Of a DNA stretch of 29,472 nucleotides, positions 1,306-25,889 are shown one piece after another. The notes under the pieces are model-generated. The model had not been told where the DNA came from. It did not search any database and was given only the letters and a program-made list of their open reading frames with translations. Every line of letters starts with the position of its first letter. Position 1 is the first letter of the stretch. The translations under genes were made by a program, and so were the position numbers. This DNA is from a virus: the IMG/VR virus record IMGVR_UViG_3300032770_000513, positions 1 to 29,472 of that record; one strand, given 5' to 3'.

Positions 1306-2470
1306 GGTTGCTCCCCCGCTTGATCCGAAACGTTGCCGTCAGGCGAATACTCCGGCCCTGGTAGCTCAAGGTCCGCTGGCATATCTCCTTGCATTGGGCG
1401 AGGGTAGCCTGCTCCTCAGCCTTGTGGTCCGCTATGGTATAGGGGAAGGCCCATTTCAAGCTGTCGTGCTGGTTGTGAATCAGCCACGAATGCGGAAAGG
1501 CCTCTTGTAGCATGATGGCGGTTTCATTGATATAGCTGGCTACAGTTCCCTGGACCACCTGGTTAAAGCCCTCCTTGGCAGTGTGCTGGTCGGAGAGCCA
1601 GAACTTCCTGGGGGCTCCATACAGGTTGCGGCTTTCCCTCGCCGCCTTAATCCGAGCCTGCCAGGTGGCTTTACGCTTCTGGATAGCCACCGTGCTCTCC
1701 ATATAGCGGATAGCCAGGCCTTCAAAGTCGGGGGTGACCGCCTGGCCAGTAGCATCCAGCACCTTATAGCTCTCGATGTGGGGGATCTGCCAGACATAGC
1801 CAGGGTTGTACACCAGCCCCTGGTAGTTGCGCTGCGGCTCCCTCGGTTTGTAGTCAGGCCTGGCTGTGTACACATAGGAGAACTGGCTGCCAAAGGTAAA
1901 GTTCTTGCCCATCGTCCGCCTGCGGTCATCCTTGCCCTGCCATTGGACCGCTCTCCGCCACGCAGCATCAGCCTGGCTACTGTGCGGGTTGCGCAGATCG
2001 CTGGGATAGGGCAGCTGGAACAGATCACAGGCCGTAGGCGTATGGATATCCAGCCCTTCTGCCATAGCGGCTAAGCGCTCAGTCCAGCCGAGGATGAGGC
2101 AATAGATCCGGTGCTCGACTGCGTCTAAATCATGCTCGATCCAGAATGTCCCTGGGGCAGGCATGAAGCAATCCCGAGCCGACCAGCACTGGTCTGTCCA
2201 CTCGTGGTGGTAGGGTGGACAGCCAGCATTGATGCAGGCCTTGGGAAAGTTGGAGATGGGTGGGTCGAGATAGCTCCAGCGTCCGCTGCTCTGCGTGGGC
2301 AGAATCGTCGGTCGGACGACTGCCTGGTCCTGCAATGCCGCAAGAAACGTATTCGCAGTGGTGGCCATGCTGGAGTATTCCAGCCGCAGCTGGGCCAGCT
2401 TCTGCTGGGTGTCACTATGCCCTGGACTGTCCAGGTACTTTCGCAGCACGTCTCGTGTCACGCTTGGCAT
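1292..2470 (-). CDS. Family A DNA polymerase, palm and fingers half
   Basis: 392 residues carrying the polymerase motifs of PolA. Motif A is DLDAVEHR (residues 114-121; Asp114, Glu119 and Arg121 in the expected places). Motif B has Arg185, Lys189, Phe193 and Phe197 at the O-helix spacing; position 197 is normally Tyr. Motif C is QHDS (334-337), where the usual HDE reads HDS. There is no exonuclease domain: this, and the start of the thumb, are on the overlapping upstream gene (2415-3872). The first residues look like the region that follows the thumb in PolA, so the two genes together make one normal polymerase. An internal GGAGGGAG lies 9-12 nt before the ATG, supporting independent initiation inside the upstream gene. 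Confidence 0.88.
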   Translation of the reverse strand: MPSVTRDVLRKYLDSPGHSDTQQKLAQLRLEYSSMATTANTFLAALQDQAVVRPTILPTQSSGRWSYLDPPISNFPKACINAGCPPYHHEWTDQCWSARDCFMPAPGTFWIEHDLDAVEHRIYCLILGWTERLAAMAEGLDIHTPTACDLFQLPYPSDLRNPHSSQADAAWRRAVQWQGKDDRRRTMGKNFTFGSQFSYVYTARPDYKPREPQRNYQGLVYNPGYVWQIPHIESYKVLDATGQAVTPDFEGLAIRYMESTVAIQKRKATWQARIKAARESRNLYGAPRKFWLSDQHTAKEGFNQVVQGTVASYINETAIMLQEAFPHSWLIHNQHDSLKWAFPYTIADHKAEEQATLAQCKEICQRTLSYQGRSIRLTATFRIKRGSNHATP

Positions 2471-3872
2471 GGGTCGTTTCTCCCTCCGGGAAAAGTACGC
2501 TGGAGAGCTGCTGGTTGCTCGCCAGATTGAATGCAGGATCGCCAGTCAGGGCCTGCGCCTCCGCCTTCAGCGCTGCAAGCCGTGTGGTGAAGCGGCTGGA
2601 AGCCTCCTGGACCCTGGCATGATCGACAGGAATGCCATGCTGCTGGAAGCGGTCCAGCACATGCAACAGGGGCTGACGACGCTGGCGGTACTCCGCATAG
2701 GCCTGGGGATCACGCTCAAACTGCCTGCACAGCTCCCGCCACACATCGTTGAGCGTCGTGAAGGCATCGAGCCCGGCATACAGCCACCGCAGCTCAGGTA
2801 CCTCCCGCAGGTGCTTATGGCGATTGAAGCGTCCGTACTTGCTCAGCATGTAGTCCAGGTTATGCAGCTCTCCAGGCCACAGCACCGCATCAGCCAGCAT
2901 GCAATCCTCCAGCACGAACTGATCTGTGCCAAACACCGCCCTGAAGTGCGGCAGGTCCACAATGGCATTCTGGGCAATGACCGCCAGGTCCTCTGGCACC
3001 TCCAGCGGAAACTCTGTGCCCCACTCAGTGACATCGACGAAGTGGACATGCCCCTCGGTATCGGCCAGGCTCCACTGCTCCAGCTTGCCCAGGCTATCGT
3101 ATTCCGTGTCAAAGCCGATGACTGGAGGCAGGGCTTTCGGTGGCTCCAGGGTGACATCAGGCAACGCTGCTGGCCAGGTCCCTCGCACCAATGCCCCCAG
3201 GCGCCTGAAGTCCCTGAGGGTAGCATGGTAGAGCTGCGTGTCTCGGAACAGCGCTGCAATGTGCAAGGTGGCAAAGATGGTCACACGGTCGCTGCCACTG
3301 TAATAGCTCGTGACGCCTGGGATGTACTCCTGCGGAGTCCACAGGGTCGCACTGCCCCTGCCTAAGGCCCAGCCTCGCCAGCTGCCAATGTTGCTCTGGC
3401 CGGTCATGGCATAGAGCGCCAGGCTGCCCATGGCGACCACGGTGCGGACGCTGTCAGGCGGATGGAAATGCGCTGCCATGCAGTGCTGGATAGCCTGCCG
3501 GAGCATGGGCTGCGTAATGCGCTTGCTCGGATCATGGCCGGTCAGGCTGGGCAGCTCATTCAGGCCATAGGGACGGCATTTGATGACATTGTCCAGGCTG
3601 TGTTCCTCCAGGGAGCCCAGCTGGGCCAGTGGCCAGAACTCCCGCCGGAGCCAGTGGCCAGTTGCGCCAATCAGCGGCTGAGGCACACAGGGCTCCGTGA
3701 TTTCCTGGCCGTAGTGCTTCTCCAGCACCCTGGCGCCGATCTCCTCATTGACGCCAGGATTCTGTCCCAGGACCAGCACGGGGCTGTTGCGGTATCTGCC
3801 TGGGACGTAGTACGGACTGAGGGTTTCGAACGGACAGCCTGCACACGAGGCAGGCTTGGGAATAGGGGGCAT
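2415..3872 (-). CDS. UDG-like domain fused to 3'-5' exonuclease and polymerase N-terminus
   Basis: 485 residues. Residues 8-215 resemble an iron-sulfur uracil-DNA glycosylase: Cys10-x2-Cys13, a GQNPG motif at about 36-40 (GEAPG in classical family 4), NVIKCRP with Cys99, a further Cys131 and a late LHIAA motif near 204. Residues 250-375 form a DnaQ-like proofreading exonuclease with Asp255/Glu257 (DTE), Asp306 and Tyr365-x3-Asp369 all present. Residues 385-465 match the start of the PolA thumb and end in a FNLASNQQL segment, where the frame changes and runs 56 bp past the next gene's ATG. AAGGAG precedes the start. The fusion suggests base-excision or uracil surveillance coupled to synthesis. 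Altered UDG motif residues leave glycosylase activity unproven. Confidence 0.87.
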   Translation of the reverse strand: MPPIPKPASCAGCPFETLSPYYVPGRYRNSPVLVLGQNPGVNEEIGARVLEKHYGQEITEPCVPQPLIGATGHWLRREFWPLAQLGSLEEHSLDNVIKCRPYGLNELPSLTGHDPSKRITQPMLRQAIQHCMAAHFHPPDSVRTVVAMGSLALYAMTGQSNIGSWRGWALGRGSATLWTPQEYIPGVTSYYSGSDRVTIFATLHIAALFRDTQLYHATLRDFRRLGALVRGTWPAALPDVTLEPPKALPPVIGFDTEYDSLGKLEQWSLADTEGHVHFVDVTEWGTEFPLEVPEDLAVIAQNAIVDLPHFRAVFGTDQFVLEDCMLADAVLWPGELHNLDYMLSKYGRFNRHKHLREVPELRWLYAGLDAFTTLNDVWRELCRQFERDPQAYAEYRQRRQPLLHVLDRFQQHGIPVDHARVQEASSRFTTRLAALKAEAQALTGDPAFNLASNQQLSSVLFPEGETTHAKRDTRRAAKVPGQSRA

Positions 3873-5411: not shown

Positions 5412-5420
5412 AGCTCCACA

Positions 5421-5459
5421 TGACAGTAGTAAGTGTAGTGCACCACTATTCCCCTGTCA
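5421..5459. promoter_or_regulatory. Candidate operator with inverted repeats
   Basis: TGACAG (5421-5426) and CTGTCA (5454-5459) form an outer inverted repeat around the leftward -10 and spacer. Inside it TAGTG and CACTA (5436-5440, 5444-5448) form a second, closely spaced one. A bound regulator here would block both facing promoters. Confidence 0.45.
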
Positions 5460-5460
5460 A
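5432..5460 (-). promoter_or_regulatory. Leftward promoter of the replication operon
   Basis: On the minus strand TTGACA (5460-5455), a 17-bp spacer and TACACT (5437-5432) form an almost perfect sigma70 promoter for the ATPase-polymerase-helicase operon. The -10 box lies inside ACTACACTTAC (minus strand, 5439-5429), the shared candidate operator motif of this phage. Confidence 0.75.
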
Positions 5461-5470
5461 GGAGCAGCCC

Positions 5471-5758
5471 ATGGAGCCCTCTCGATCCCTCTCCCCAGGA
5501 CGCCGTACCCTCCGTATGGCGGGTCTCAGCCGCAGTGATTTCCAGCTGTTCACCCTCTTGAAGAAGCACTTTGGCTTTGACATGCGGCAGATCGTCATCC
5601 TCGGCTTCCGATGGCTGTATGCCAGCTGGCATGAGCCTCGGCTCAGGGCCATGGTCATTGCCCTGGCCCAGGAGATTGTGGCCGAGGACCTCAATGAGGA
5701 GGGCCCCCGAGGCACATACAGACCGCTGGATGCGATCACCCAGGACATCCCATCCTAG
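5471..5758 (+). CDS. Small early protein, possible ribbon-helix-helix regulator
   Basis: 95 residues. The start at 5471 is chosen because AAGGAG (5459-5464) lies 6 nt before it; an in-frame ATG at 5420 would leave almost no leader after the promoter. The middle (about residues 22-55) reads as a helix, a Gly-Phe-Asp turn and a helix running into hydrophobic residues, similar in outline to ribbon-helix-helix or small HTH regulators. Its position alone between facing promoters and before a strong terminator fits an early regulator. No family is recognised, so DNA binding is inference only. Confidence 0.7.
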   Translation: MEPSRSLSPGRRTLRMAGLSRSDFQLFTLLKKHFGFDMRQIVILGFRWLYASWHEPRLRAMVIALAQEIVAEDLNEEGPRGTYRPLDAITQDIPS

Positions 5759-9270: not shown

Positions 9271-9615
9271 ATGACCTCGACCGATTTGCTGCATGGCTGG
9301 TCCCTGGACCAGGATAGCGAGAGTGTGACGCTGTATGGTCCGGGTGGATCTTTCTACATTACCCTCTGCCCCTTCATCCCCAGTCGTCTGACCAGACACC
9401 AGGATGCAGGCCTGTTCACGCCAACGCTGCTGTCCTGGTCGTATCCGCTGGAGGAGGGTGTCGAGTTGCAGTATAGCTCCACCAGCATGACTGACTCCGC
9501 TGTCACCCCACTGTACCTGCTCCATGTGGGCACGTCTGTGACATGGCATCTCCCCCCTGAGACGGGGAGACGCTTTGCTGCCTGGTGTAGCGCTCAGAAG
9601 GCGCAGGCTGCCTGA
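9271..9615 (+). CDS. Early protein, unknown function
   Basis: 114 residues, beta-type and aromatic, without zinc or membrane motifs. AAGGAG lies before the ATG. It is the last gene before the first copy of the structured element: the stop codon (9613-9615) ends 2 nt before its first helix. Not recognised. What matters most is that the same gene-end-to-element arrangement recurs at 16324 on the other strand. Confidence 0.68.
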   Translation: MTSTDLLHGWSLDQDSESVTLYGPGGSFYITLCPFIPSRLTRHQDAGLFTPTLLSWSYPLEEGVELQYSSTSMTDSAVTPLYLLHVGTSVTWHLPPETGRRFAAWCSAQKAQAA

Positions 9616-9617
9616 AC

Positions 9618-9727
9618 CCGACACAGGACAGTAGCATCTCTGGTGGCTATGAGGTCAAGGGCTTCGCGAGTTCGGCTTCGCCTCACCCTTGACCTCGCCA
9701 CCGTCGATGCTGTGGTGAAGGTGTCGG
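9618..9727 (+). ncRNA. Structured element, copy 1 (core hairpin)
   Basis: A long hairpin built as: CCGACAC (9618-9624) with GTGTCGG (9721-9727); an 8/9-nt internal loop; AGCATC (9633-9638) with GATGCT (9706-9711); a 3/3 loop; GGTGGC (9642-9647) with GCCACC (9697-9702); a TAT bulge; and an 11-bp stem GAGGTCAAGGG (9651-9661) with CCCTTGACCTC (9686-9696) capped by a 24-nt folded loop. Copy 2 (16221-16340, opposite strand) has the same plan with changed but still paired bases. Similarity resumes at 9842-9864. It may be a cis-acting RNA, a free RNA or a mobile hairpin; the sense strand shown is that of the upstream gene. Confidence 0.75.
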
Positions 9728-9874
9728 CTCCAGAGCAGCGTCCGGCTTGTCTCACCACGCAGCTATGGCTCGCTACGCTTCGCTTCGCTGTGGCAGCTGG
9801 GCCATGCCAGGGCGAGCAATGGTGCTGGCAATGGTGCTGGACTGGCCTGGATTCCCCAGGAAGGAGATGGACCT

Positions 9875-9955
9875 ATGAAGACTATTACTGAGAGCTGGGA
9901 TGCTGCTGGCCATTGGTTGCCCCATGGCTGGGTCGACAGGGAGGAGGGCTCGTAG
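9875..9955 (+). CDS. 26-residue micro-protein coupled to a membrane protein gene
   Basis: 26 codons from the ATG at 9875 with a perfect AAGGAG (9861-9866) at 8 nt. Its TAG (9953-9955) overlaps the GTG start of the next gene by one base. The peptide is acidic and Trp-containing with no membrane segment. It may be a real micro-protein or a leader that sets translation of the membrane protein. Its ribosome binding site lies inside the distal conserved box (9842-9864) of structured element copy 1. Confidence 0.5.
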   Translation: MKTITESWDAAGHWLPHGWVDREEGS

Positions 9956-10434
9956 TGGAACTCATTGGCATGCTGCTGGTACTGTGGCTGATGGTCCGAG
10001 TGGTGCGGTCAGCCTGGGGTGTCATGCAGCCGAAGGAATTACCTGGCAAGGGCTACGCATTGGAGGATATCATGGCATTACATTTCAAGGATGAAGCCGC
10101 ATTCAGGATGTGGCAGTTGCAGATGCAGGCCGACCCCAGGGTGCAGGCTGCGCTGGCAGGAGATGGGCCTTCCAGGCCTGTCCAGGCTGTGCAGGCGGAA
10201 AAGCCCTTGCAGGGGGGTGGGAAGGATGGTAGACTGCAGGCCTTTACGCCGTTGAGGCAGGCTGAGCATAGGCCGTCTCAGGCTGGTACACTGTGGCATG
10301 GCAGTGAGCAGTTGTGGTCTGCTCCGTCTCCGGTGCCTGCGTCGAGCAGGGCTCCATGGTGGGCCTGGGTGCTTCTGATGCAGGGGGTCGTTGGTTTGCT
10401 GCTGCTGCTGGCGGTCTTTGGGGCGTTGCAGTAG
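9955..10434 (+). CDS. Membrane protein with N- and C-terminal transmembrane helices
   Basis: 159 residues from GTG 9955, chosen because AGGAGGG (9942-9948) is 6 nt upstream. A hydrophobic helix at about residues 3-20 is followed by a soluble, Gln- and Pro-rich middle (30-125) and a second strongly hydrophobic helix near the C-terminus (about 130-157). Both ends would be membrane-anchored. A role in lysis, superinfection exclusion or host-envelope interaction is possible; no family is recognised. It is the last gene of the rightward early operon. Confidence 0.68.
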   Translation: MELIGMLLVLWLMVRVVRSAWGVMQPKELPGKGYALEDIMALHFKDEAAFRMWQLQMQADPRVQAALAGDGPSRPVQAVQAEKPLQGGGKDGRLQAFTPLRQAEHRPSQAGTLWHGSEQLWSAPSPVPASSRAPWWAWVLLMQGVVGLLLLLAVFGALQ

Positions 10435-12293: not shown

Positions 12294-12327
12294 AGCGTTG
12301 TCCTTCCTGGGAGCATGCGACAGGACA

Positions 12328-12356
12328 ATACTACACTATCTGAAGGAGACGTGCAA
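12328..12356 (-). promoter_or_regulatory. Leftward promoter with shared operator motif
   Basis: TTGCAC (12356-12351), a 17-bp spacer and TAGTAT (12333-12328) on the minus strand. ACTACACTATC (plus strand, 12330-12340) overlaps the -10 box and is one of five copies of the phage's candidate operator. Its -35 and spacer closely resemble those at 16916-16888. Confidence 0.65.
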
Positions 12357-14457: not shown

Positions 14458-14814
14458 CTAGCGATGGGACAGGATGGTAGTAATGTCAGCGAGCTGTGAT
14501 GGATACCACAGGTAGCTCTCCACGGTCTCCACATGCCCCAGCATCTCCAGCCACCTGGCCTGAGCTGCGGTGGGCTTTCTGGAACCAACCTTGAGTTCTG
14601 TTAGGACCAGCCTGTGCCCATTGCAGCAGGCCAAATCCGGCCATCCTTCTTCACTGCGCTGAGAGTTGTAGGGATGGTAGGTCAGCCAGCCATGCTGGTG
14701 CGCAATGCTCCGTACCTGCGCCAGGAAGGCTGCTTCCCGGAGTACGCCCTGGGACGCTGGAGCAGGCAGCTGGCGAGAGCAGTAGACAGCGTATTCAGCC
14801 TCGGTCCAGTGCAT
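14458..14814 (-). CDS. VRR-NUC family nuclease
   Basis: 118 residues. A PD-(D/E)xK core is visible: Glu-Gly-Trp-Pro-Asp (56-60), then after a beta hairpin Glu73-x-Lys75 (TELK), followed by a helix with Gln85 and Trp88 as in VRR-NUC domains. Stand-alone phage VRR-NUC proteins are structure-selective DNA nucleases thought to act in recombination or DNA processing. AAGGAG lies 10 nt before the ATG. The AT-rich stretch shared with 6028 lies immediately upstream (14836-14847). Confidence 0.85.
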   Translation of the reverse strand: MHWTEAEYAVYCSRQLPAPASQGVLREAAFLAQVRSIAHQHGWLTYHPYNSQRSEEGWPDLACCNGHRLVLTELKVGSRKPTAAQARWLEMLGHVETVESYLWYPSQLADITTILSHR

Positions 14815-14958
14815 GGGATCTGTTCTCCTTTACCTTATATATATGCAGCAGGAGAGCCTATGCTCCCCATGCCTCCAGGAACGCACGAATGAAGAGCGCT
14901 GCTACTTGCGGTACGAGGCTATTGCCATAGCCGCACAATCGTCCCACGCGAGCGTGGT

Positions 14959-15882
14959 TTATGTATCGCACAGGCCATACTTGCTTTCGCACGCACTGGG
15001 CTGGAGCACAAACATGAGTCGTCTCCCGCCGTGCGCCGTGTGTGCCCACTGCACAACATCGTCAATCCAATTGATCGGAGATCCTGGAACCATCGGTGCG
15101 AAGAAGGTGCGGCCAACTCGCTGCTCCCATGCACGCACTTTGTCAATTATGGCAGGGAATCGTGTCGCCCAATTGAGGATATCTGCTTTATTACTATTGA
15201 TACACGGTGCACACCCAACGCGATTAAACCCTAATGTATACAGTGGGTTAATAGGCTCTCCAGCTTGCCGGAGTACGGCAAACACTTCAGGTTTTGTCCA
15301 GCATCGGACTGGATAGTGCAACAGACAGTTGAAATAGGTATCCCACGTACTGTCTGGTGTATTGGCGCGCACAGCGAACTCATCGCACCGCACACCGATA
15401 TAGCGTTCATAGGCGACATGCTTGGATGTAAGCATCGTGTCTATCCACCGTTTTTGTGGGAGCAGTTTCAGATGCCTGGTACAAAACTGGGCTTTACGGG
15501 AGGGAAATCGGTTCTGAATATACGCCAGCGTGTCGAACGTGAGGGGATCAGTCTCCTGAAACTTCTGCCTGCGGTCCCGTGTCCCCCCTGGTCGTGTCCC
15601 TCGACTGCCCATGTCCTGAATTTGAGCGGACACCGTGACCACGGGAAAGATTGTGCGGGAGTACTCCGCGATAAATTCGGTAGTCATCGGATGCTCATTG
15701 CCACCGGCATCGGAATTGAGAAGGATAATCTCTTCAGCGGGGAACCTCTGCCGTACCCACCATGCGCATGCCTGGCTATCCGCCCCTCCTGAAAAGCTGA
15801 CAAGGCGCAGTACTGTGCTGCTCGTTTCCGCCCGAGCAATTTTGTCTCTCGCATCACTATCCTCGTTAGTCGTCTGGAGCAT
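14959..15882 (-). CDS. PAPS reductase/DndC-like PP-loop protein
   Basis: 307 residues. The PP-loop SFSGGADS (29-36) marks the ATP-pyrophosphatase superfamily. QFCTRHLK (132-139), Gly-Val-Arg-x-Asp-Glu near 163-168 and Cys224-x2-Cys227 match the PAPS reductase/DndC-like branch, which moves sulfur via activated sulfate or adenylation. Phage members occur widely; a metabolic, tRNA/DNA-modification or counter-defence role is possible. Codon and word use differ from neighbours (fewer CCTGG words), suggesting transfer. AGGAG is 10 nt before the start. The DHH gene two genes downstream could use pAp, the by-product of true PAPS reduction. Confidence 0.85.
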   Translation of the reverse strand: MLQTTNEDSDARDKIARAETSSTVLRLVSFSGGADSQACAWWVRQRFPAEEIILLNSDAGGNEHPMTTEFIAEYSRTIFPVVTVSAQIQDMGSRGTRPGGTRDRRQKFQETDPLTFDTLAYIQNRFPSRKAQFCTRHLKLLPQKRWIDTMLTSKHVAYERYIGVRCDEFAVRANTPDSTWDTYFNCLLHYPVRCWTKPEVFAVLRQAGEPINPLYTLGFNRVGCAPCINSNKADILNWATRFPAIIDKVRAWEQRVGRTFFAPMVPGSPINWIDDVVQWAHTAHGGRRLMFVLQPSACESKYGLCDT

Positions 15883-15982
15883 ACAATCCGTTCTCCTGTT
15901 GTCCGGCAGAGCGAAATGGTGGCCAGAGCTGTGCCAGCCAGTGGCAGATGAAGGCGTCGTTGAAGTAGCGACGAATGCTCAT
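15866..15982 (-). CDS. Candidate 38-residue leader protein
   Basis: 38 codons beginning close to a candidate promoter start and overlapping the next gene's start by 17 bp. The peptide is mixed hydrophobic and charged (MSIRRYFNDAF start) with no membrane helix. There is no ribosome binding site, so it would need leaderless or very short-leader initiation. It may only be the untranslated leader of the PAPS-reductase-like gene. Confidence 0.3.
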   Translation of the reverse strand: MSIRRYFNDAFICHWLAQLWPPFRSAGQQENGLYAPDD

Positions 15983-15988
15983 GCCAGA

Positions 15989-16017
15989 AGTATACTACAC
16001 TTACGCTAGCATTGCCA
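15989..16017 (-). promoter_or_regulatory. Candidate leftward promoter with shared operator motif
   Basis: TGGCAA (16017-16012), a 17-bp spacer and TATACT (15994-15989) on the minus strand. The -35 is weak, but ACTACACTTAC (plus strand, 15994-16004) sits at the same place relative to the -10 as in the promoters at 12328 and 16888 and is identical to the motif at 5439-5429. Confidence 0.5.
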
Positions 16018-16080
16018 GAGCCGGATGCAGCCCGGAGCTGTCCCCCCGGTATGTGCCCTGGGAGCTGGAGCAGTATGGTC

Positions 16081-16214
16081 CCTTCCTGGGGCATGGAGGC
16101 CAGCAGGGGGTTGTCTGGTTATGGCAACCGACCTCCGTACCAAGTTGTCCCCCGATCTTTAACCTCGGGACCAACGCATGCTTTTTCTCTGGAGAGATGG
16201 TTGCCGCTTTTTCT
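16081..16214. other. Outer part of structured element, copy 2
   Basis: No gene. GGCAACC (16123-16129) pairs with GGTTGCC (16199-16205) and encloses a hairpin with CCCGA (16151-16155)/TCGGG (16165-16169), extended by GTTG (16144-16147)/CAAC (16172-16175). The box 16081-16103 matches the reverse complement of 9842-9864 at 20 of 23 positions, at nearly the same distance from the core hairpin as in copy 1. Confidence 0.55.
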
Positions 16215-16345
16215 CCGGAGCCGATACACCCCACGCAGCATCGGAGCAGTCGCGGTCAAGGGTGAGGCGTAGCGTAGCGAAGCCGAATTCACGTAGCCCT
16301 TGACCGCATAGACTGCGGAGATGCTATGCTCCCGTATCGGTCCGG
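16215..16345 (-). ncRNA. Structured element, copy 2 (core hairpin)
   Basis: CCGATAC (16221-16227) pairs with GTATCGG (16334-16340); AGCATC (16237-16242) with GATGCT (16320-16325); GCAGTC (16246-16251) with GACTGC (16311-16316); and the 11-bp GCGGTCAAGGG (16252-16262) with CCCTTGACCGC (16297-16307), with an ATA bulge (16308-16310). CCGGA (16215-16219) and TCCGG (16341-16345) extend it. Relative to copy 1, five base pairs changed on both sides and still pair. Its outer arm lies in the last codons of the gene at 16324, whose TAG falls in the internal loop. Sense strand assigned by analogy with copy 1. Confidence 0.75.
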
Positions 16346-16632
16346 GGAAACAGCGAGAAGGGGCAGTGCCTCCAGGGTGCAGCGTAGGTTGCAGTCCCAT
16401 CAGTGCAGAACTCCATCGCTGCGACACACAGCCCATCCTGGTGCCATTGCAGCATGAGGGTCCTGTGTGGGGTCGTGCAGAGGGTCATGACGCTGTCGTA
16501 CTGCTGGGCATCTCGGCTGAGACGCCTGCCATAGCGGTCTAAGAAGGCCTCACAGCCTGCTAGGGCTCCTGGCAGTACCGGCGGGTCTGCACTGCGGACA
16601 AGCTGGGTGAGACTGGCTGCAAGGCTGGTCAT
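16324..16632 (-). CDS. Small protein, unknown function
   Basis: 102 residues, mixed helix and strand, with four Cys but no zinc spacing. It is coupled to the upstream gene by an ATGA overlap. Its final codons form part of the outer helix of the structured element, so the element may have set the present C-terminus. Not recognised. Confidence 0.65.
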   Translation of the reverse strand: MTSLAASLTQLVRSADPPVLPGALAGCEAFLDRYGRRLSRDAQQYDSVMTLCTTPHRTLMLQWHQDGLCVAAMEFCTDGTATYAAPWRHCPFSLFPRTDTGA

Positions 16633-16853
16633 AGCGGTGCTCCTCGCTGGTGGGGTGGAGTGGCATGGCTGAGCTGTCCCAGCAGGATGCCCAGCAGGGC
16701 CCAGAACTGCCGGGCTTCAGGGGTGCTGAAGCTGAGGCTCATGCCCTGCCTGGTGCAGGTGTACTGGTCGATCTCGGCCGTATAGGCAATGTGGCCTGCA
16801 AGCGTATGTGTCTCCGGGTCAATCCAGCATTCCAGGCGGTCTGGTGTGTGCAT
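16629..16853 (-). CDS. Small protein, unknown function
   Basis: 74 residues, first gene after a near-consensus promoter (16916-16888). The N-terminal 45 residues look beta-rich with a Cys at 9 and 33; the rest is a hydrophobic helix (about 50-64) that could be amphipathic or membrane-associated. The ATG lies about 30 nt from the predicted transcript start. Function unknown; its place beside an HTH gene suggests an immediate-early role. Confidence 0.65.
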   Translation of the reverse strand: MHTPDRLECWIDPETHTLAGHIAYTAEIDQYTCTRQGMSLSFSTPEARQFWALLGILLGQLSHATPPHQRGAPL

Positions 16854-16866
16854 CGGTCTTACCCTG

Positions 16867-16875
16867 TGCTATACT
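16867..16875 (+). promoter_or_regulatory. Candidate extended -10 promoter for the HTH gene
   Basis: TGCTATACT (16867-16875) is a TGn-extended -10 box without a good -35, placed 44 bp before the GTG of the HTH gene and facing the leftward promoter at 16888-16916, as at 5383-5460. Confidence 0.4.
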
Positions 16876-16887
16876 CGGCTGTGGATA

Positions 16888-16916
16888 ACTATACACTATC
16901 TGTAGCAGAGGTGCAA
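16888..16916 (-). promoter_or_regulatory. Leftward promoter with shared operator motif
   Basis: TTGCAC (16916-16911), a 17-bp spacer and TATAGT (16893-16888) on the minus strand. TATACACTATC (plus strand, 16890-16900), a variant of the operator motif, overlaps the -10. The -35 overlaps the ribosome binding site of the divergent HTH gene. Confidence 0.7.
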
Positions 16917-16918
16917 TC

Positions 16919-17200
16919 GTGGAAGATGTCATTGGCTATATTAACCGATTGCGGACAGGATGCGTGGTGTATCGAGGCACCAAGAGCCTCAGGCAGATGG
17001 CAGCAGAGATGGAGGTGGGAGAACGGATGCTCGCTCGGTTCCTCCGTGGAGGGTATCTCGGCTTAGGTCACTTAGCTCGTATTGAGGTGTGGCTGGAACG
17101 GTATGGAGTCATGCCTGCAACTCATACGGAAAGTACTGAGACTGGTACGAAAAGTGTTCCACTAGGGAAAAATATGAGTACGAGTTCTGAAGGGCTGTAA
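16919..17200 (+). CDS. Small HTH DNA-binding protein (Cro-like)
   Basis: 93 residues from GTG 16919, with AGAGG (16907-16911) at 7 nt. Residues 23-43 (SLRQMAAEMEVGERMLARFLRG) read as a classical helix-turn-helix with Ala-Ala, Val and Leu in the expected core places; helices follow to residue 64 and a polar Thr/Ser-rich tail completes the protein. Its divergent position from a promoter with the shared operator makes it a candidate Cro-type regulator of the phage. A terminator follows directly. A small-terminase role is a weaker alternative. Confidence 0.75.
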   Translation: MEDVIGYINRLRTGCVVYRGTKSLRQMAAEMEVGERMLARFLRGGYLGLGHLARIEVWLERYGVMPATHTESTETGTKSVPLGKNMSTSSEGL

Positions 17201-17228
17201 CTTGCTGTATTGCAAGGAGTTATTTTTT
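17201..17228 (+). terminator. Rho-independent terminator after the HTH gene
   Basis: CTTGC (17201-17205), a 6-nt loop and GCAAG (17212-17216) followed by GAGTTATTTTTT. It begins immediately after the stop codon and isolates the HTH gene from the next promoter. Confidence 0.6.
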
Positions 17229-17230
17229 GC

Positions 17231-17258
17231 TTGACAAATGGAAAAATCGTGCTACACT
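17231..17258 (+). promoter_or_regulatory. Promoter of the repressor-like and packaging genes
   Basis: TTGACA (17231-17236), a 16-bp spacer and TACACT (17253-17258) in an AT-rich island. The -10 lies inside GCTACACTTAA (17251-17261), a copy of the operator motif. It reads into the 350-nt leader before the gene at 17619 and may be the main promoter for the structural operon. Confidence 0.65.
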
Positions 17259-17264
17259 TAACGC

Positions 17265-17618
17265 GCAGCGCCAGGGGGGGGGTAAAGGGGCAGCGAGGCA
17301 GCAGGCTGGAGGAGGAGGGTCTGGGGGTCTGGAGCAGGAGGAGGGGTCCTGGGGGGTAAAGGAGGGTCTGGGAACCAGAAGGGGGTATGCAGTCCAGTAG
17401 CTGGAGTATGGGGTTAGCCGGAGTCTACGTCGTGTTGGTCTGCTGAAGGCGAGGAAAGACGCTGGATGCATGGGGAGTAAAATGAACGTTTGTGCCCCCC
17501 TCTCAAGCAAACTGGGCGTTTTCTTGAGGATCTACGGAGGGAGGGACTGTGGTTGAAGGAGATCTGTGGGGGTTAAGGGGGTTTAGGGGTTTAAGGGGGA
17601 GTGCAGAGGGGGGATACA
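17265..17618 (+). other. Long G-rich leader with a hairpin
   Basis: About 350 nt without a convincing gene. 17274-17282 is a run of nine G and many further G4-G6 runs follow on the plus strand, allowing quadruplexes or an R-loop. A hairpin with CTCAAGCAAAC (17502-17512) and GTTTTCTTGAG (17518-17528), one mismatch and a 5-nt loop, may be an operator or attenuator. Frames of 19 codons at 17387 and 24 codons at 17483 could be leader peptides. Confidence 0.5.
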
Positions 17619-18494
17619 GTGCAGCAGGCAGGGGTACCCGGTGGAGACCGGCTGCAGCGGAGGATCACAGCGCAAGCACCGTTGCGTCTGGCGATGCAGC
17701 GCAAGCAGGACGCTCTGGGCTGGACGTTGCGGCAAGTGGCACAGCACCTTGGGCTGAGCTTCTGGAGCGTGAGCAGGTTCGACAGGCGGGAAGGGGGCTT
17801 AGGGCTGCGGTCACGGCTGCGGTTGCAGGAGTGGCTCGGGGAGAGCATCGAGGGCTCTGAGCGAAGCGCCTGGGTGCATGTGCGTAGTGCTGCGCCGCTG
17901 GATACAGCGACAGGGCAGAAGCTGCTCGATGTTGCAGGACGGCTGCAGGGTTCTACCGGGGTGGATATGCCTGTGCGGCGGGCATTGGGACTGCGGGAGG
18001 CGGGTATGGAGGCAATGGCTGGGGCCTTCCGGGCTGAGTTGGGGCTCACGGAGGATGATGCTCTGGACCCGCTGCGGATTGCTGTCGATGGCGTTGAGGT
18101 GGTGGAGGAGGCTGTGGGCTCGGGGGTCTGGGCGCTTATGGCTGTGCCGATCGATGCGGAGCACTGGGTGGTGGTACGGAATGCGGAGTATCGCTACCTG
18201 TACGGAGCAAAGCAGGCGTTTCTTGAAGAACTGTGGCATATTCTGTTGTGTCATAAGCTGCGGCGGGTGGTGAAGAGTGCTCCAGGGGTCTATAGCCGTG
18301 ATTTTGGTCAACAGGCTGACTTCGAGGTATGGTATCTGGCCTTAGCAACGCTGCTCCCAGCAGGGCGAGTGATGGACACTGCAGGAGAGATCGCTCTAGC
18401 CAAGCACTATGGGGTCACTCCGCCTCAGGTGGTGGAACGGCGGCAATGTCTGGAGGTCTGGCCCGTGGTGGGGAGGAAGGTGCGGCTGTGCTGA
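17619..18494 (+). CDS. HTH protein with degenerate ImmA/IrrE-like domain
   Basis: 291 residues from GTG 17619 (GAGGGGGG at 6-7 nt; GTG 17601 is an alternative). Residues 24-51 form an XRE-type helix-turn-helix (TLRQVAQHLGLSFWSVSRF). Residues about 165-255 look like ImmA/IrrE: the place of HExxH reads EELWH (203-207), so the first zinc-ligand His is Glu, and the distal Glu ligand region reads QQAD. The peptidase is therefore probably inactive, as in several phage repressors with ImmA-like domains. It overlaps the terminase start by 7 bp in the slot where a small terminase subunit often lies. It is either the phage repressor or a DNA-recognition partner of packaging. Confidence 0.75.
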   Translation: MQQAGVPGGDRLQRRITAQAPLRLAMQRKQDALGWTLRQVAQHLGLSFWSVSRFDRREGGLGLRSRLRLQEWLGESIEGSERSAWVHVRSAAPLDTATGQKLLDVAGRLQGSTGVDMPVRRALGLREAGMEAMAGAFRAELGLTEDDALDPLRIAVDGVEVVEEAVGSGVWALMAVPIDAEHWVVVRNAEYRYLYGAKQAFLEELWHILLCHKLRRVVKSAPGVYSRDFGQQADFEVWYLALATLLPAGRVMDTAGEIALAKHYGVTPPQVVERRQCLEVWPVVGRKVRLC

Positions 18495-20158
18495 GACCTG
18501 TAAGGCGTGCTGAGCGGAGAGCCCAGCTGTGGGATATCCAGGAGGTGGCGAAGCTGATGCCGGTCTGCCTGGTGCCCAGCTGTGAGCAGGAGGGCACTCG
18601 CCACTTGCTGCCGCATCAGGCAGAGATTGCGGAGTACATGCTGTGTGGGGAGGAGAACTACGTCTACTGGCAGGGGGGTGTAGGCTCGGCCAAGACGCTG
18701 CTGGTAGCGGCGGTGGTGGTCCACATGAGCCTGCATATTCCTGGTATCCAGGCCATTTGCTTCAGGAAGGACTTTGGTCTCAATCATGAGACATTGTTCG
18801 GGGCGGTGAGAATGGCCGTGGATGCGGCCTACGAGCAGGGCATGCTGGGGGCTCTGACGGCGAAGGCCTATATCGCCTGTTGGACGGTCAAGATCGCTGG
18901 AGGGCATACCATCTGCCACCTGCCCAATGGCTCGGTCATTCGGGCGGGAGAGACCAAGAACTGGTCTCGCTACATGGGGCCGACCTATGACGTGATTGCG
19001 GTCTCGGATGCGATGGAGAACCACGACTTTGGCGAGATATTCCATGGCACAGGGGTGGTGGGAGGCCTGCAATCCCGGCTCCGTGGCCAGCGCAGTGCCT
19101 TCTGTCGCATGGCGGATGGGTCCATACGGGATATGCGGCGGTTTCTTATTGAGACCAACCCTCCGCCTCGGGTGAATGAGCTGCATGAAATCTTTGGTCG
19201 AGAGCCTGGAGTGCGGGTGTTAGCGTATACTGAGCCTCGGAATATCACCTACCGTCATATCCAGACGACTTCGGTGCAGAATACCCACAATCCGCCCTCC
19301 TATCTGGCTGAAATCTCCAGCCAGCACCCTAATCGAGACGACATTCGCCGTATTCTGGAGGGCCGGACAGTTCCGTACTACGGAGGTGTTCGCGTCATTG
19401 AAAGCTTTCACGCTGAAGTCCATGTGGATCGCTTTACGGTCGATGACGCCTTGCCGCTGTTTGTGGGCATTGACCCAGGCTATCAGCATCCAGCGGTGGT
19501 GATCTCCCAGATCCGCCGGTGTGCCTATGGGGAGGAGCACTGGATTACCCTGAGCGAGATCAGCAACCTGTTCAATGTGACCACCTGGGAGCTGGCGGAG
19601 CTGGCCAATGGCGATAGTATGGGGATCTTGCGGCATTTAGGGCTGTACTATCCAGCCCATTTCGATTATACGTTATACCAGCAGGTGAAAGCCCGACAGC
19701 AGCCAGGCTCCAGTGTCCTCCAGGGCCATTTTCAGCAGGTGCATTTCTGTATCGACAGGGCTGGCAATAGCACCTCGCGGCTGAACAAGGACCGCCAGGG
19801 TGATGCGGGGGTGCTGGCCCGAGACTTTGGTATTGTGACTCGGAGTCGAGCCAATCTGCGGCTGCAAGTCACCCTCGATAAGGTCCGTGAGCTGCACAAG
19901 GAGCTGTGTGCGTGTGCAGTACCACGGCGGATGGTGGACCAGAAGTGCCAGCTGCTGATTGATGCCTACAGCGGGGGCTATCGCTTTAAAAAGCGCCGGG
20001 ATGGCTCGCATTCCGAGGAACCTGTAGGGGACCACCTGTACGAGGACATTGCCGATGCAGACCGCTATGCCCTGTGCAACTTCTTCTGGCGCAAGAACGC
20101 TCCAATAGTCACCTACAACGGCATTACGCTGCGTGAGGATGCCTGGGAGACCTGGTAG
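18488..20158 (+). CDS. terL: Terminase large subunit
   Basis: 556 residues from GTG 18488, with GGAGGAAGG 7 nt upstream and a GTGCTGA overlap with the preceding stop; the longer frame from 18329 would lie inside that gene. Walker A is GGVGSAKT (63-70). A Walker B-like strand ends in VSDAME (near 170), differing from the usual DEA order. The RNase H-like nuclease begins with FVGIDPG (near residue 328), giving its first catalytic Asp. It drives ATP-dependent packaging of phage DNA and cuts it. No separate small subunit is recognisable. Its stop overlaps the portal start by one base. Confidence 0.9.
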   Translation: MLRPVRRAERRAQLWDIQEVAKLMPVCLVPSCEQEGTRHLLPHQAEIAEYMLCGEENYVYWQGGVGSAKTLLVAAVVVHMSLHIPGIQAICFRKDFGLNHETLFGAVRMAVDAAYEQGMLGALTAKAYIACWTVKIAGGHTICHLPNGSVIRAGETKNWSRYMGPTYDVIAVSDAMENHDFGEIFHGTGVVGGLQSRLRGQRSAFCRMADGSIRDMRRFLIETNPPPRVNELHEIFGREPGVRVLAYTEPRNITYRHIQTTSVQNTHNPPSYLAEISSQHPNRDDIRRILEGRTVPYYGGVRVIESFHAEVHVDRFTVDDALPLFVGIDPGYQHPAVVISQIRRCAYGEEHWITLSEISNLFNVTTWELAELANGDSMGILRHLGLYYPAHFDYTLYQQVKARQQPGSSVLQGHFQQVHFCIDRAGNSTSRLNKDRQGDAGVLARDFGIVTRSRANLRLQVTLDKVRELHKELCACAVPRRMVDQKCQLLIDAYSGGYRFKKRRDGSHSEEPVGDHLYEDIADADRYALCNFFWRKNAPIVTYNGITLREDAWETW

Positions 20159-22296
20159 TGGCAACCGAGCAAGAACTGCTGGACATGCTGCTGGGGCCCC
20201 TGTATGGGATTACCCAGCGTCGGCGCTATGTCGAGCAGGGTTGGTTGCTGAATTACCGTGGCTACCAGGGCGTTCCGTTGCCTACCGGCGTCCAGCCCCT
20301 GTTGGATGGCTCAGCCCGCTACTTCGTGCCGCATGCCAGACGGGTCATTGAGCGCAATGTGGCCAGGCGGACCAAGCTGCTCATGCCCGTGACCGACTGG
20401 TTCGAGACCCTCCCCCTGGATGATGTCTCCTCCGTCAGCGCTGAGGCAGTCCATGCCCTGATGCGCTATGTCTATGAGAAAAAGCTCCAGACCCGCCGGG
20501 TGATCTCCAGTCTCTGCCGCTGTCTCCAACTCTACAATTTCGCAGTGCTGCATACTGGCGTCCGTGTCGCTGGTAATGAAGTCTGGCCCTACCAACGGGC
20601 TGTAGACCCCTTCAGCTTCTACGTATTTCCCGATACTGCCACCTGCCGTGAGGAAGCCTCGCTCATTTTCGAGACCTGCATCGTGCCATTTGCGGTATAT
20701 GACAGCTTTGTGGACCATGAGCAGCCTGCGGAATCGCTGTATGTGCCATTGCGGGTCGCAGATCTGAGCCGCCCGGTGTGGCCTTACCACATGGTCGAGC
20801 GGCTGGCCTACAAGGGCCTGAGCATGCCAGACGACATTATCCGTGGAGGCTCGGAACGGACTATACGGCGTCGAGAGGGGCAGATCCGCAGGCAGACACA
20901 GCAGACCTTGCAGGATCAGTCCAGCAGCTTTGTGCAGCTCAGCAAGGTGAATTTCCGCCAGGGGGCGAAGTGGTACTTTGCGGTCATTGCCCACAACCTG
21001 GAGGAGCCTCGGCTGGTGCGCTTTGATGAGGAGTACGAATGGCCGATGTACCAGTGGGCCTGTAGTCGGCCTATCCCTGGGGAGCTGTACATGCCAGGCG
21101 AAATGGACGACATGCGGGTGCTGCAACAGCTGACGAACAGTGCGCTCAGCCAGATCGAGAGCAACCGGGAGCGGGTTGCTGACCCTCCCATGGCCATGGA
21201 TACCAGCCTGGTGGACCGCTTGGAGAACTTCACCTTTGAAAACAGGAAGATCTGGAAGGTGAATGGCGATCCTAATGCGATCTTCAAGGACATTCCGACG
21301 GGGGATGTTGGCCAGGGTGGCTTACGGGCTTTCCAGGTCTACCTGAATTTGCTCAATGCGGTCTCAGGGGGAGCCCAGGTGAACGAAGGCGAACCCGGCC
21401 GCAATATGCCCCGCAGCGGTGCCATTGGGGGGAGCCTCCTGAATCTGGCCATGGCGGACCAGGAATACGCCGCCAATGTGGAGGAGGAGGAGCTGCTCAC
21501 CCCGGGGCTGGCGGATGTGTACCACATGCTGGTGACGGTGGTGCCTCCCAGCCAGATCTTTCGCATCCCTGGTCGAGGCCGGGATGCCTTGCGGGTGCTG
21601 TCTCAGGCAGAGGCGCTGGGGGAGTACTCCTTCCTGTGGCAGGGCAACCTGGCTTACGAGAGCACCCAGGAACGGGCTGCGAAGCTGATGCAGTTCGCTG
21701 GCATGCTGCTTCAGCCAGCCCTGATGCAGGAGCTGGCCTATGAGCTGGGCATGATGGGGCAGAAGATCGACTTTGCACAGCTGTTCAAGATGGTCTATAC
21801 CTATGGCCTGGGAGAGCGCGGTCTGGGGGAGATCGTGGCAGACATGTCGCCCCAGGAGCGGCAGATGTTCGAGCAGCGGCGGCAGCTGAGCAATGCGGCT
21901 CAGCTGGCAGCTCTCCAGGCCCAGCAGGCGCAGGCAGGCCTCAGTGTGCAGACTGGCAGGGCTAGGGTCACCGATATTGCCAGTCGAGCCCAGGAACGCC
22001 AGCAGAAGGGCCGTCTCGCCGCAGCCAGAGCCCAGCGGGAGGCAGCACGGACCCAGTCGGATGTGCAGTCAGCTCGAGTGGCAGACCACTTGAGCATTGC
22101 GGAGGAGCACCGCAAGCAGCAGCAGCTGGGGCTGGATGCCCAGACCGCAGCGCAGCAGGACCAGCGGGAGCGGTTTGGGATGATCCTGCCGATGCTCCAG
22201 CAGGAGGACCAGGCAGGCCAGCAGGGTGGACAGCCAGGGCCTCAGGAGGCTCCAGAAGGCCCTCAGGAGGCTCCAGAAGCGCCAGAAGGTGCCTGA
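20158..22296 (+). CDS. Portal protein
   Basis: 712 residues, size and position right after TerL fit a portal; the GTG start overlaps the TerL stop (TAGTG). The first 560 residues are mixed alpha/beta with a long helical region (about 300-420). Residues 570-690 are a Gln/Ala/Arg-rich helical tail of barrel or coiled-coil type, and the last 25 contain a repeated Pro-Gln-Glu-Ala-Pro-Glu unit encoded by a 21-bp direct repeat. It forms the dodecameric DNA channel of the capsid. Assignment rests on gene order, length and style more than on motifs. Confidence 0.83.
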   Translation: MATEQELLDMLLGPLYGITQRRRYVEQGWLLNYRGYQGVPLPTGVQPLLDGSARYFVPHARRVIERNVARRTKLLMPVTDWFETLPLDDVSSVSAEAVHALMRYVYEKKLQTRRVISSLCRCLQLYNFAVLHTGVRVAGNEVWPYQRAVDPFSFYVFPDTATCREEASLIFETCIVPFAVYDSFVDHEQPAESLYVPLRVADLSRPVWPYHMVERLAYKGLSMPDDIIRGGSERTIRRREGQIRRQTQQTLQDQSSSFVQLSKVNFRQGAKWYFAVIAHNLEEPRLVRFDEEYEWPMYQWACSRPIPGELYMPGEMDDMRVLQQLTNSALSQIESNRERVADPPMAMDTSLVDRLENFTFENRKIWKVNGDPNAIFKDIPTGDVGQGGLRAFQVYLNLLNAVSGGAQVNEGEPGRNMPRSGAIGGSLLNLAMADQEYAANVEEEELLTPGLADVYHMLVTVVPPSQIFRIPGRGRDALRVLSQAEALGEYSFLWQGNLAYESTQERAAKLMQFAGMLLQPALMQELAYELGMMGQKIDFAQLFKMVYTYGLGERGLGEIVADMSPQERQMFEQRRQLSNAAQLAALQAQQAQAGLSVQTGRARVTDIASRAQERQQKGRLAAARAQREAARTQSDVQSARVADHLSIAEEHRKQQQLGLDAQTAAQQDQRERFGMILPMLQQEDQAGQQGGQPGPQEAPEGPQEAPEAPEGA

Positions 22297-22551
22297 GCAT
22301 GGCTCCCCTGGTCAAGAGGTCACCCTGGGGCTGCTAGCGGCCTGTACAGCGGCAGGATGCAGTGCTCCCGCACGGGTGGAGGTATGCCCCTCAGAGCAAT
22401 ACCCCCTGGGAGGCTCTAGAAGGCCCCTAGGAGCCTCCAACAGCTCTGGGGGGTAGTCAAGTATGGTTTCGCTATCAGAAAGCAACCTGGAGGCTGCTAG
22501 AGGCCTCTAATGGGGATTAATGCAGCTATGCTGTACGGATAGGAGAGCTAC
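22297..22551 (+). other. Intergenic region with a large hairpin
   Basis: No gene. TACCCCC (22400-22406) pairs with GGGGGTA (22449-22455), and inside it GGAGGCTC (22409-22416) pairs with GAGCCTCC (22431-22438) with a TAG/CTA extension. A related GGAGGCT-GCTAGAGG-CCTCT copy follows near 22492. No T tract follows, so transcript control between portal and capsid genes is more likely than simple termination. Confidence 0.5.
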
Positions 22552-22761
22552 ATGGCCAGCAAGGCAAAGCGTGAGAAGACCCAGGTCCGCCCTGGGGCTG
22601 ATGCGAAGGCCCAATACCGTATTCAGAAGGCAGCGAATGCTCCCAAGGGCCGGCATAACCAGCCTCGGGGTACAGCGGGGAAGGCCAGGGCTAAAATGAC
22701 CCCATTACAGCAGCGCAACAGCGGTGGGGAGAAGGAAAGCCTCAAGGAAATGCTGTTTTAA
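22552..22761 (+). CDS. Small basic protein
   Basis: 69 residues, strongly basic (Lys/Arg) and hydrophilic, with TAGGAGAG before the ATG. Such short basic proteins in the head operon may bind DNA or the capsid interior. The last three sense codons are part of a 33-bp tandem duplication that continues past the stop. Not recognised. Confidence 0.65.
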   Translation: MASKAKREKTQVRPGADAKAQYRIQKAANAPKGRHNQPRGTAGKARAKMTPLQQRNSGGEKESLKEMLF

Positions 22762-22808
22762 TGGGTGCATTAGCACACAGAAATGCTGTTTTAATGGGTG
22801 CATAAGCA
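22747..22808 (+). repeat. 33-bp tandem duplication
   Basis: A 24-bp unit (22747-22770) recurs exactly at 22780-22803 and the similarity continues for five more bases with one change, giving a 33-bp period. It duplicates the end of the gene at 22552 including its TAA, and ends just before the ribosome binding site of the gene at 22825. Confidence 0.85.
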
Positions 22809-22824
22809 TATAGAAAGGTAACAT

Positions 22825-23328
22825 ATGCCAGTGTTCTCCTCCGTCACGGTGCAAATTCCCCCTGGGGACAATACGGGCCTGGGCATGACGGTGGCCAATA
22901 TCGATGCCAGGGGCCTTCAGGCGGTCGCTCCTGCCCATCTGAAGCAAGATGGCAATCTGGTCCATGATAAGGAGCTTATCCAGGTAGCGTTTCCAACGGC
23001 TCCTGCGGCTGGTGGGCTGTATGTCTGGTCCGTGCCAGAAGGCTTCTGGCAGTTGGCGGGGGTGATATATAGCCAGGGCACGGCAAGTACCAGTGGGACC
23101 ATCGATGTGCAGGTGTGCTCTGTTGGTACAGCGGCAAATGCGGGTACGACGCAGTTGACAGCGGTCATTGGGACATCCACAGCAGGGAACAATAGCCAGG
23201 ATGTAACGGGAACATTAATTGCGACACCGACGACCTTTGGACCGGGGAACCGGCTGTCGATTGTGATTGGTGGGACGCCGACTGGCATGGTCGGGACGGT
23301 GAGCCTCTCGATACGGAGGGTGGCGTGA
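22825..23328 (+). CDS. Putative capsid decoration or head-fibre protein
   Basis: 167 residues, rich in Gly, Thr, Ser, Val and Ile with alternating strands, lacking charged helices: an all-beta, secreted-like composition typical of decoration or fibre proteins. AAAGG lies before the ATG. It stands between the portal and scaffold genes, and its stop overlaps the next start (TGATG). Similar in style to the protein at 32-559. Function is inferred from composition and place. Confidence 0.72.
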   Translation: MPVFSSVTVQIPPGDNTGLGMTVANIDARGLQAVAPAHLKQDGNLVHDKELIQVAFPTAPAAGGLYVWSVPEGFWQLAGVIYSQGTASTSGTIDVQVCSVGTAANAGTTQLTAVIGTSTAGNNSQDVTGTLIATPTTFGPGNRLSIVIGGTPTGMVGTVSLSIRRVA

Positions 23329-23963
23329 TGGCTGAGGAGTACATAGAAGGTCAGCAGGAACCCGCAGTCCCCCAGCTGAGCCGGGAGGACCTTGAGCAGA
23401 TGATCCGGGAAGGCGTTGGCGCAGGCTTGCAGCAAGCGGTGCAGCAGTCCCTCCGCCAGCAGCCAGTCCAGCAGCAGTCCTCCCAGCCACAGCAACCCGA
23501 CAATCCCTTCAGGGAATGGATTGACCCTGTGGTACAGCCAGGGTTGCAGCAGGCCCACCTTCGCACCATGGCCATGGAGGACAAGGTGGACTTCTACTCC
23601 TCCGACCAGTGGGTACGGGATGTGGAGGACCACCTGGTGGGTGAAACGGATGAGGAGCGTCGCAAAGAGCGAGCTGAACTGCGGGCAGACATCGAGCAAT
23701 ACTTTGCCAACTTCATGCAGCAGGGTCGTCCGATTATCCGGAAGGACTTGCTGGACTATACCCTGGGCAAGCGCATTCGGGAGCAGTCCGGGAAGTACCA
23801 GGACGCGGTGCATAAGCGCAAGTCCGCTGTGCAGCAGGCAGAGCTAGCGAAGGCCAGGCGGCATGTGGACATGGGAGGCTCTGCGATGGACTTTGATCCC
23901 AGGAGCGTCCATGCCATGCCCATTGAGAAGGTCCAGGAGCAGTACGGCGATTTCCAATTCTAG
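23328..23963 (+). CDS. Putative scaffolding protein
   Basis: 211 residues from the ATG at 23328 (GGAGGG upstream). A Gln/Glu-rich N-terminal half (10-70), then charged helical segments (residues 80-180), high hydrophilicity and position just before the capsid gene are characteristic of phage scaffolds, which guide procapsid assembly and then leave. The C-terminus is short and mixed rather than strongly basic. No protease motif is visible. Assignment is from composition and synteny. Confidence 0.75.
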   Translation: MAEEYIEGQQEPAVPQLSREDLEQMIREGVGAGLQQAVQQSLRQQPVQQQSSQPQQPDNPFREWIDPVVQPGLQQAHLRTMAMEDKVDFYSSDQWVRDVEDHLVGETDEERRKERAELRADIEQYFANFMQQGRPIIRKDLLDYTLGKRIREQSGKYQDAVHKRKSAVQQAELAKARRHVDMGGSAMDFDPRSVHAMPIEKVQEQYGDFQF

Positions 23964-23984
23964 AAGCAGTAGGAGACGACACCA

Positions 23985-25310: not shown

Positions 25311-25321
25311 GAGGCAGTGCT

Positions 25322-25885
25322 ATGCCACAGCAACCGGGGAATCCCTATCGAGCAAAGAAGTCCTCCAGGCCGAAGTCTACTACAACTCAGGGGGCAGCTC
25401 GGGCCTCAGCCATCCGCCGTGAGATATCGCTGGAAGAAGCCATTGCAGCGCTGCAAAAGCTGGGATTCCAGATCACGGCTCCGGTGGTCGATGCGGATAG
25501 GGCCCGTCAGGCTGCCACGCTGGATGCGCTGGGCTTTGAGCGTGGTGCAGAGCCAGAGGCGCCACGCTCGACACGGACGCTGCGGGGGTATCTGCATGCA
25601 CGGCATACCCTGGGGACGACCGTGTATGGTCCAGGCGACTTTGAGCTGCCTCCGTGGGAGACAGCGCTGTATCAGACCCTGCTCCAGGCAGACCAGGCCT
25701 GTGTCCGTGGTCATATGGACACCAGGGAGTACCACCCTGAGGTGCGGAGCTTCATGATCGTCCCTGGTCAGGGGGGTGATCAATTTAGCAAGTACAGCAA
25801 GGTGGAAGTGGCGACCGGGGCGTTCGAGAGCACCTGGCAGACGACAGACAACATGATTGCGGTGGACCTGCGGACGGAGCATTGA
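25322..25885 (+). CDS. Head-operon protein, unknown function
   Basis: 187 residues. A basic N-terminus (to about 35) is followed by a helix-Leu-Gly-Phe unit (EEAIAALQKLGF) and a related Leu-Gly-Phe unit near residue 75, then a mixed alpha/beta rest. GGAGG lies 7 nt before the ATG. It follows the capsid gene by 11 bp. A head completion or internal protein is possible; not recognised. Confidence 0.65.
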   Translation: MPQQPGNPYRAKKSSRPKSTTTQGAARASAIRREISLEEAIAALQKLGFQITAPVVDADRARQAATLDALGFERGAEPEAPRSTRTLRGYLHARHTLGTTVYGPGDFELPPWETALYQTLLQADQACVRGHMDTREYHPEVRSFMIVPGQGGDQFSKYSKVEVATGAFESTWQTTDNMIAVDLRTEH

Positions 25886-25889
25886 ACCT

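Follow-up and report, generated by a model that had tools for sequence, protein, structure and literature searches.

Two diverged copies of a long hairpin lie behind genes on opposite strands of a phage sequence

The window analysed here is the entire IMG/VR record IMGVR_UViG_3300032770_000513 (29,472 b), from an uncultivated phage, and a long hairpin occurs in it twice, each time at the end of a gene. Copy A (9618-9727) is on the + strand, where its outer helix starts 2 nt past the stop codon of a 114-aa gene (9271-9615) with the ribosome-binding site AAGGAG. Two small ORFs in the same sense, 9875-9957 and 9955-10434, lie beyond it and both have ribosome-binding sites, that of the ORF at 9875 being GGAAGGAG. 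The + genes therefore restart about 140 nt past the hairpin, and no recognisable sigma-70-type promoter is present in between. Copy B (16221-16340) is on the - strand and adjoins a two-gene unit (16853-16324), in which a 102-aa gene (16324-16632) is ATGA-coupled to gene 16629-16853. The final 17 nt of the 102-aa gene, stop codon included, overlap the hairpin. Genes on the - strand restart near 15.98 kb, and before them is a promoter-like site (CTGGCA-18-TATACT, 15989-16018, -) with weak statistics.

Each copy is thus directly behind a same-sense gene and has the same orientation relative to that gene. The preliminary description of this DNA had each copy closing a block of small genes, which is correct for the genes upstream, but same-sense genes restart past both copies. 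No family match was found for any of the genes adjoining A and B, and the two upstream genes share neither a family nor visible homology. A CTGGCCTNNATNCCCCAGGAAGG block is located 107-110 nt past both copies (9842-9864, + and 16081-16103, -; 20 of 23 letters alike). A longer A/B duplication that would include the blocks 9842-9864 and 16103-16081 was considered and is not claimed, because the downstream block scores only at the ~10% background level.

Copies A and B are diverged copies of one hairpin, one per DNA strand. They are 71% identical over 128 b (blastn, E 4.6e-15) and constitute the only opposite-strand repeat at E ≤ 0.05 within the window (E 8e-13). An invertible segment between them was ruled out because the identity is 71% and there is no long identical core. 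Structurally, the preliminary coordinates and helix plan are correct. In copy A, an outer 7-bp helix (9618-9624 with 9721-9727) encloses a loop of 7/8 nt, or 8/9 nt with the closing U-G pair assigned to the loop, which is followed by helix 2, formed by UAGCAUC (9632-9638) and GAUGCUG (9706-9712) and containing a conserved U-G pair. A 3/3 loop separates helix 2 from a 6-bp helix, helix 3 (9642-9647 with 9697-9702), in both copies. Next come a conserved 3-nt bulge, UAU, on the 5ˊ side (9648-9650), an 11-bp helix (9651-9661 with 9686-9696), and an apical part of 24 nt (9662-9685). The apical part of copy B is 10 nt longer (CGCTACGCTA type), at 34 nt.

Pairing was counted in a two-sequence alignment of A and B that includes 31 pairs in four helices. 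All 31 positions have standard pairing in both copies, with five pairs changed on both arms, none changed on one side and none broken. The five double changes claimed previously were all recovered: one in the outer 7-bp helix, three in the 6-bp helix, and one in the 11-bp helix. The chance that the same five pairs are hit on both arms is 1/C(31,5) = 5.9e-6, before the right base is required, in a test that compares two copies whose changes are mostly double transversions. When the alignment register is slid, only 29-50% of positions are paired and at most two double changes appear. All of the double changes are Watson-Crick. Four of the five are double transversions, and these have no G-U step because double transversions cannot pass through G-U.

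Conservation is uneven along the element. Helix 2 (UAGCAUC/GAUGCUG) has the same letters in both copies, the UAU bulge is constant, and 21 of 24 aligned letters agree in the apical part, whereas the loop adjoining the outer helix shares 5 of 15 letters. Both copies fold better than 200 of 200 shuffles on either strand, with fold z-scores of -5.9 (sense) and -7.5 (antisense) for A and -5.5 (sense) and -6.0 (antisense) for B, and folding energy reveals no strand preference in either copy. The conserved U-G pair would be a C-A mismatch on the opposite strand and so points weakly to the sense RNA. Because paired positions have changed together, folding of the element is probably maintained. Compensation alone is no proof of RNA, however, because changes of this kind can also arise when DNA palindromes undergo template switching.

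Relatives of the element were sought in several collections, from which records very close to the window may be missing. Rfam yielded no match at the gathering threshold anywhere in the window, and sub-threshold matches around A and B (microRNA and others; E 0.2-4.7) are chance. With copy A as the blastn query, 50,697 phage records yielded at E ≤ 1 nothing beyond a chance match of 26 nt, in a Streptomyces phage. Plasmid records contained no relatives and viral contigs contained no exact half-sites; viral-contig matches to looser core patterns are chance and were rejected by a covariance model, R1, which matches copy A at 9617-9735. An exact-stem scan of species genomes gave 44 loci, which were selected by the stem itself. 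The best of these, in Leptolyngbya (L030, 36.6 bits), lacks the helix plan, and its stem is unique in its genome. R1 was also applied with strict filters to 888 genomes sampled from the phyla of one Caulobacteraceae, one Thermoleophilaceae, and one Leptolyngbya genome, and found no relative there, the one weak lone match being in an already-known genome (G001). The model likewise did not find the element in the closest phages, whose capsid proteins are 66-68% identical. The preliminary description knew of no family with this plan, and the searches agree: Rfam yielded none, and the covariance model added no homolog among the 888 genomes and the closest phages.

The stem scan brought up a separate observation. 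Several Clostridia MAGs (L014, L021, L034, L035, L042, L043, L045, and L050), a number of them from rumen-type samples, have in common a palindrome that carries the same GGTCAAGGG/CCCTTGACC core, which lies within CTGCTGTCATCC...GGMTGYCAT arms. This looks like an unrelated repeat family.

Searches with single proteins (terminase, PAPS reductase) gave no close phage relatives. Capsid alignment identified four collinear ones (G002, G003, G007, and G008), with 66-68% identity in the capsid and 54-55% in the terminase, in which replication and structural genes are ordered as in the window. Three of these (G002, G003, and G007) are 43-46 kb long, and the window is therefore probably a genome fragment. 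Direct terminal repeats in G003 (1-438 and 45315-45752, 93%) and G007 (1-123 and 43042-43164, 100%) suggest that those genomes of 43-46 kb are near-complete. The window encodes a family-A DNA polymerase in two ORFs (1292-2470 and 2415-3872, -), an N-terminal part with a uracil-glycosylase-like start and then the palm part. The same two-ORF arrangement is found in G002 (36012-38776), G003 (17058-20002), and G007 (14614-17542), and because the split is present in the window and three relatives it is a trait of the group rather than a sequencing error.

Additional features of the window were recorded. GAYAAYNNTACACTATC occurs twice (12324-12340 and 16884-16900), one copy being between the divergent genes at 16.85-16.92 kb. 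It is a possible operator, but two or more matches also arise in 13 of 100 shuffles. The protein encoded at 17601-18494 matches helix-turn-helix proteins weakly and contains the stretch EELWHILLCH, which resembles a metallopeptidase motif; it is a possible repressor-linked protease. Gene 22552-22761 has at its end two 33-b tandem units that are 91% alike (22747-22812). Across the whole window, CTAG and CGCG occur at about a quarter of the frequency expected from dinucleotides, and GTAC at twice it.

Long palindromes were surveyed in six genomes, namely the four collinear relatives, the more distant G004, and the window. The survey found 26, of which 19 are intergenic compared to 2.4 expected from coverage. 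Copies A and B are not among these 19, as they fall below the palindrome score of the survey because of their asymmetric loops. The hairpins are spread over G003 (20210-28454 and 43971), G002 (802-42437), and G007 (21373-36249). Several begin 1-10 nt past a stop codon (for example G003 25665, G003 43971, and G007 36215), and most of the long intergenic ones have no U-tail, while that at G007 24751 is a normal terminator with a T-run. One hairpin, AAAGGTAGAYAT...ATRTCTACCTTT, is common to G002/G008 and G003, where it follows a - gene and has an 8-nt bulge and a conserved outer helix. In G007, an array of ATTTACGTAAGTGAGTG-like units (21331-21607) that follows the homologue of window gene 5420-5758 folds into large palindromes.

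As a control, 36 capsid-centred loci of distant phages were examined, and these had 17 palindromes, four of them intergenic, in 630 kb. The relatives have five intergenic palindromes in the matching ~56 kb, with G008 omitted as a near-duplicate of G002. This is about 14 times the rate of the distant phages (P 3.5e-5), a surplus of approximate size, given simple gene calls and unequal GC content in the two groups. Having long hairpins in the spacers behind genes, in similar spots but with changing sequence, seems to be habitual in this phage group. The hairpins at G002 41303, G003 22340, 22514, 25665, and 43971, and G007 36215 resemble A and B in their placing and in mostly lacking a U-tail. 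However, they have no sequence similarity to A and B, and in some of them the bulge is 8 nt long and on the 3ˊ side, as against 3 nt and the 5ˊ side in A and B; the surveyed hairpins in general differ from A and B in both sequence and plan. The best reading of these comparisons is that A and B might represent this lineage's own version of the hairpin habit, duplicated once.

The function that we favour, tentatively, is that of cis-acting intergenic RNA hairpins for protection, processing, or insulation of mRNA 3ˊ ends. Under this proposal, a single duplication would have produced A and B, with pairing kept as they diverged. The transcript of each copy would fold into an interrupted duplex of 11 + 6 + 7 bp within the outer 7-bp helix, and this hairpin might protect or define the 3ˊ end of the upstream mRNA and separate that mRNA from expression of the downstream genes. 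Cleavage by a host double-strand RNase, a block to 3ˊ-5ˊ decay, or both, could be the means. We infer both the action of the sense RNA and the processing or protection mechanism. With 11 + 6 + 7 bp in spacers, the copies offer the intergenic duplex of near two helical turns that an RNase III site needs. No RNase III was found to be encoded by the phage group, and a host enzyme must thus be assumed. T7-type phages have RNase III processing hairpins between early genes, and those hairpins, like A and B, are long, interrupted, intergenic, located between same-sense small genes, and without a U-run. A and B differ in being longer, in their five-part plan, and in each having a sequence-related partner on the opposite strand, and their cleavage is only predicted. 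The functional RNA envisaged in the preliminary description is therefore retained in part: a structure beside genes has kept its pairs and is possibly RNA, and of the roles named there a processing-type signal best fits the habit of the relatives, while the put-like antiterminator does not.

The nearest rival to this mRNA-element reading is a transcription boundary, in which a long hairpin acts as a U-less or factor-dependent terminator that stops or slows RNA polymerase and insulates the units on either side. Both copies are directly behind stop codons, past B come a promoter-like site and further - genes, and the hairpins of relatives are similarly placed, including the normal terminator of G007. 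An intrinsic terminator has a GC-rich hairpin and then a U-run, and A and B are not classical terminators because no U-run follows either copy in the sense direction. Moreover, the + genes restart past A without a recognisable promoter, and the five-part structure with its conserved bulge exceeds the needs of a terminator, such that we regard a boundary as unlikely. Less likely again is a mobile REP- or MITE-like palindrome that entered twice from a host outside those sampled, an option carried over from the preliminary description. REP elements occur at gene 3ˊ ends in enterobacteria and, like A and B, are palindromes in spacers directly behind stop codons and are repeated in the genome. The presence of two copies in this genome and none in the closest phages is consistent with mobility, as are the runs of CGCTA/CGCTT pentamers in the apical part that are also present just past A. 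Yet A and B are ~110-120 nt long, number only two, and reside in a phage, and no outside copy was found in Rfam, phages, plasmids, viral contigs, the exact-stem scan of species genomes, or the 888 genomes searched by model. Furthermore, no target-site duplication or end motif was recognised, and both copies are equal in place and orientation relative to the gene. There is a small chance that A and B instead belong to a previously undescribed class of regulatory phage RNA that occurs in pairs, a single hairpin with one copy per opposed gene block that a phage protein or RNA polymerase would read via the UAU bulge, the UAGCAUC helix, and the apical part, thereby controlling elongation or processing in both blocks.

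A slightly smaller chance attaches to a quasipalindrome that has no function and whose arms are kept matched by template switching during replication, a process that can both generate stems with multi-base compensations and preserve them (PMC8794818). The concentration of three double changes within the 6-bp helix and the predominance of double transversions, four of five, fit such an origin, but the asymmetric bulge and the 3/3 loop, both of which template switching would tend to erase, stay in place. In addition, the conservation of helix 2, the bulge, and the apical part, set against the divergence of the outer internal loop, suggests that parts of the element are under selection. The two remaining explanations are the least probable and carry equal weight. 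One is a put-like antiterminator RNA, one per early operon, as named in the preliminary description. The put sites of phage HK022 are ~70 nt long, form two stem-loops, and are just downstream of early promoters, putL directly behind PL and putR ~270 nt away (PMC9378689). Like putL and putR, A and B are two structured elements per phage, similar but not identical, with one in each opposed block (PMC9378689), and B is about 500 nt from the start of its - unit, the promoters being predicted ones. However, A is some 4 kb into the + block, A and B point toward each other, each is a single hairpin of ~110-120 nt, and no phage record has a matching sequence. The other is a DNA-level site, a single-strand initiation or protein-binding palindrome used in replication with one per strand, in the manner of ssiA and ssiB of RSF1010, each strand of which likewise has one hairpin-bearing site (PMC4434180). 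Mutually inverted copies, one per strand, would suit this role, as would Watson-Crick pairing at all double changes, which DNA pairing needs, equal folding of both strands, and a helicase/primase-like ATPase encoded by the phage (577-1305). Against it, the ssi sites are about 40 nt long with a small hairpin and serve plasmid replication with its own primase (PMC4434180), whereas A and B have neither that size nor that structure and are 6.5 kb apart. The collinear relatives have the same replication genes without the element, and a DNA site leaves the placing behind stop codons unexplained. The mobile palindrome, the quasipalindrome, and the single-strand DNA site are all less probable than the transcription boundary.

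Should the structure act in mRNA, the group would be well suited to asking how phages that lack recognisable T7- or lambda-type signals divide up their early transcripts, as related genomes retain the hairpin habit while swapping the sequences. The A/B pair also provides a clean case of two copies for testing which of two processes, RNA-level selection or template switching in DNA, gives rise to paired changes.
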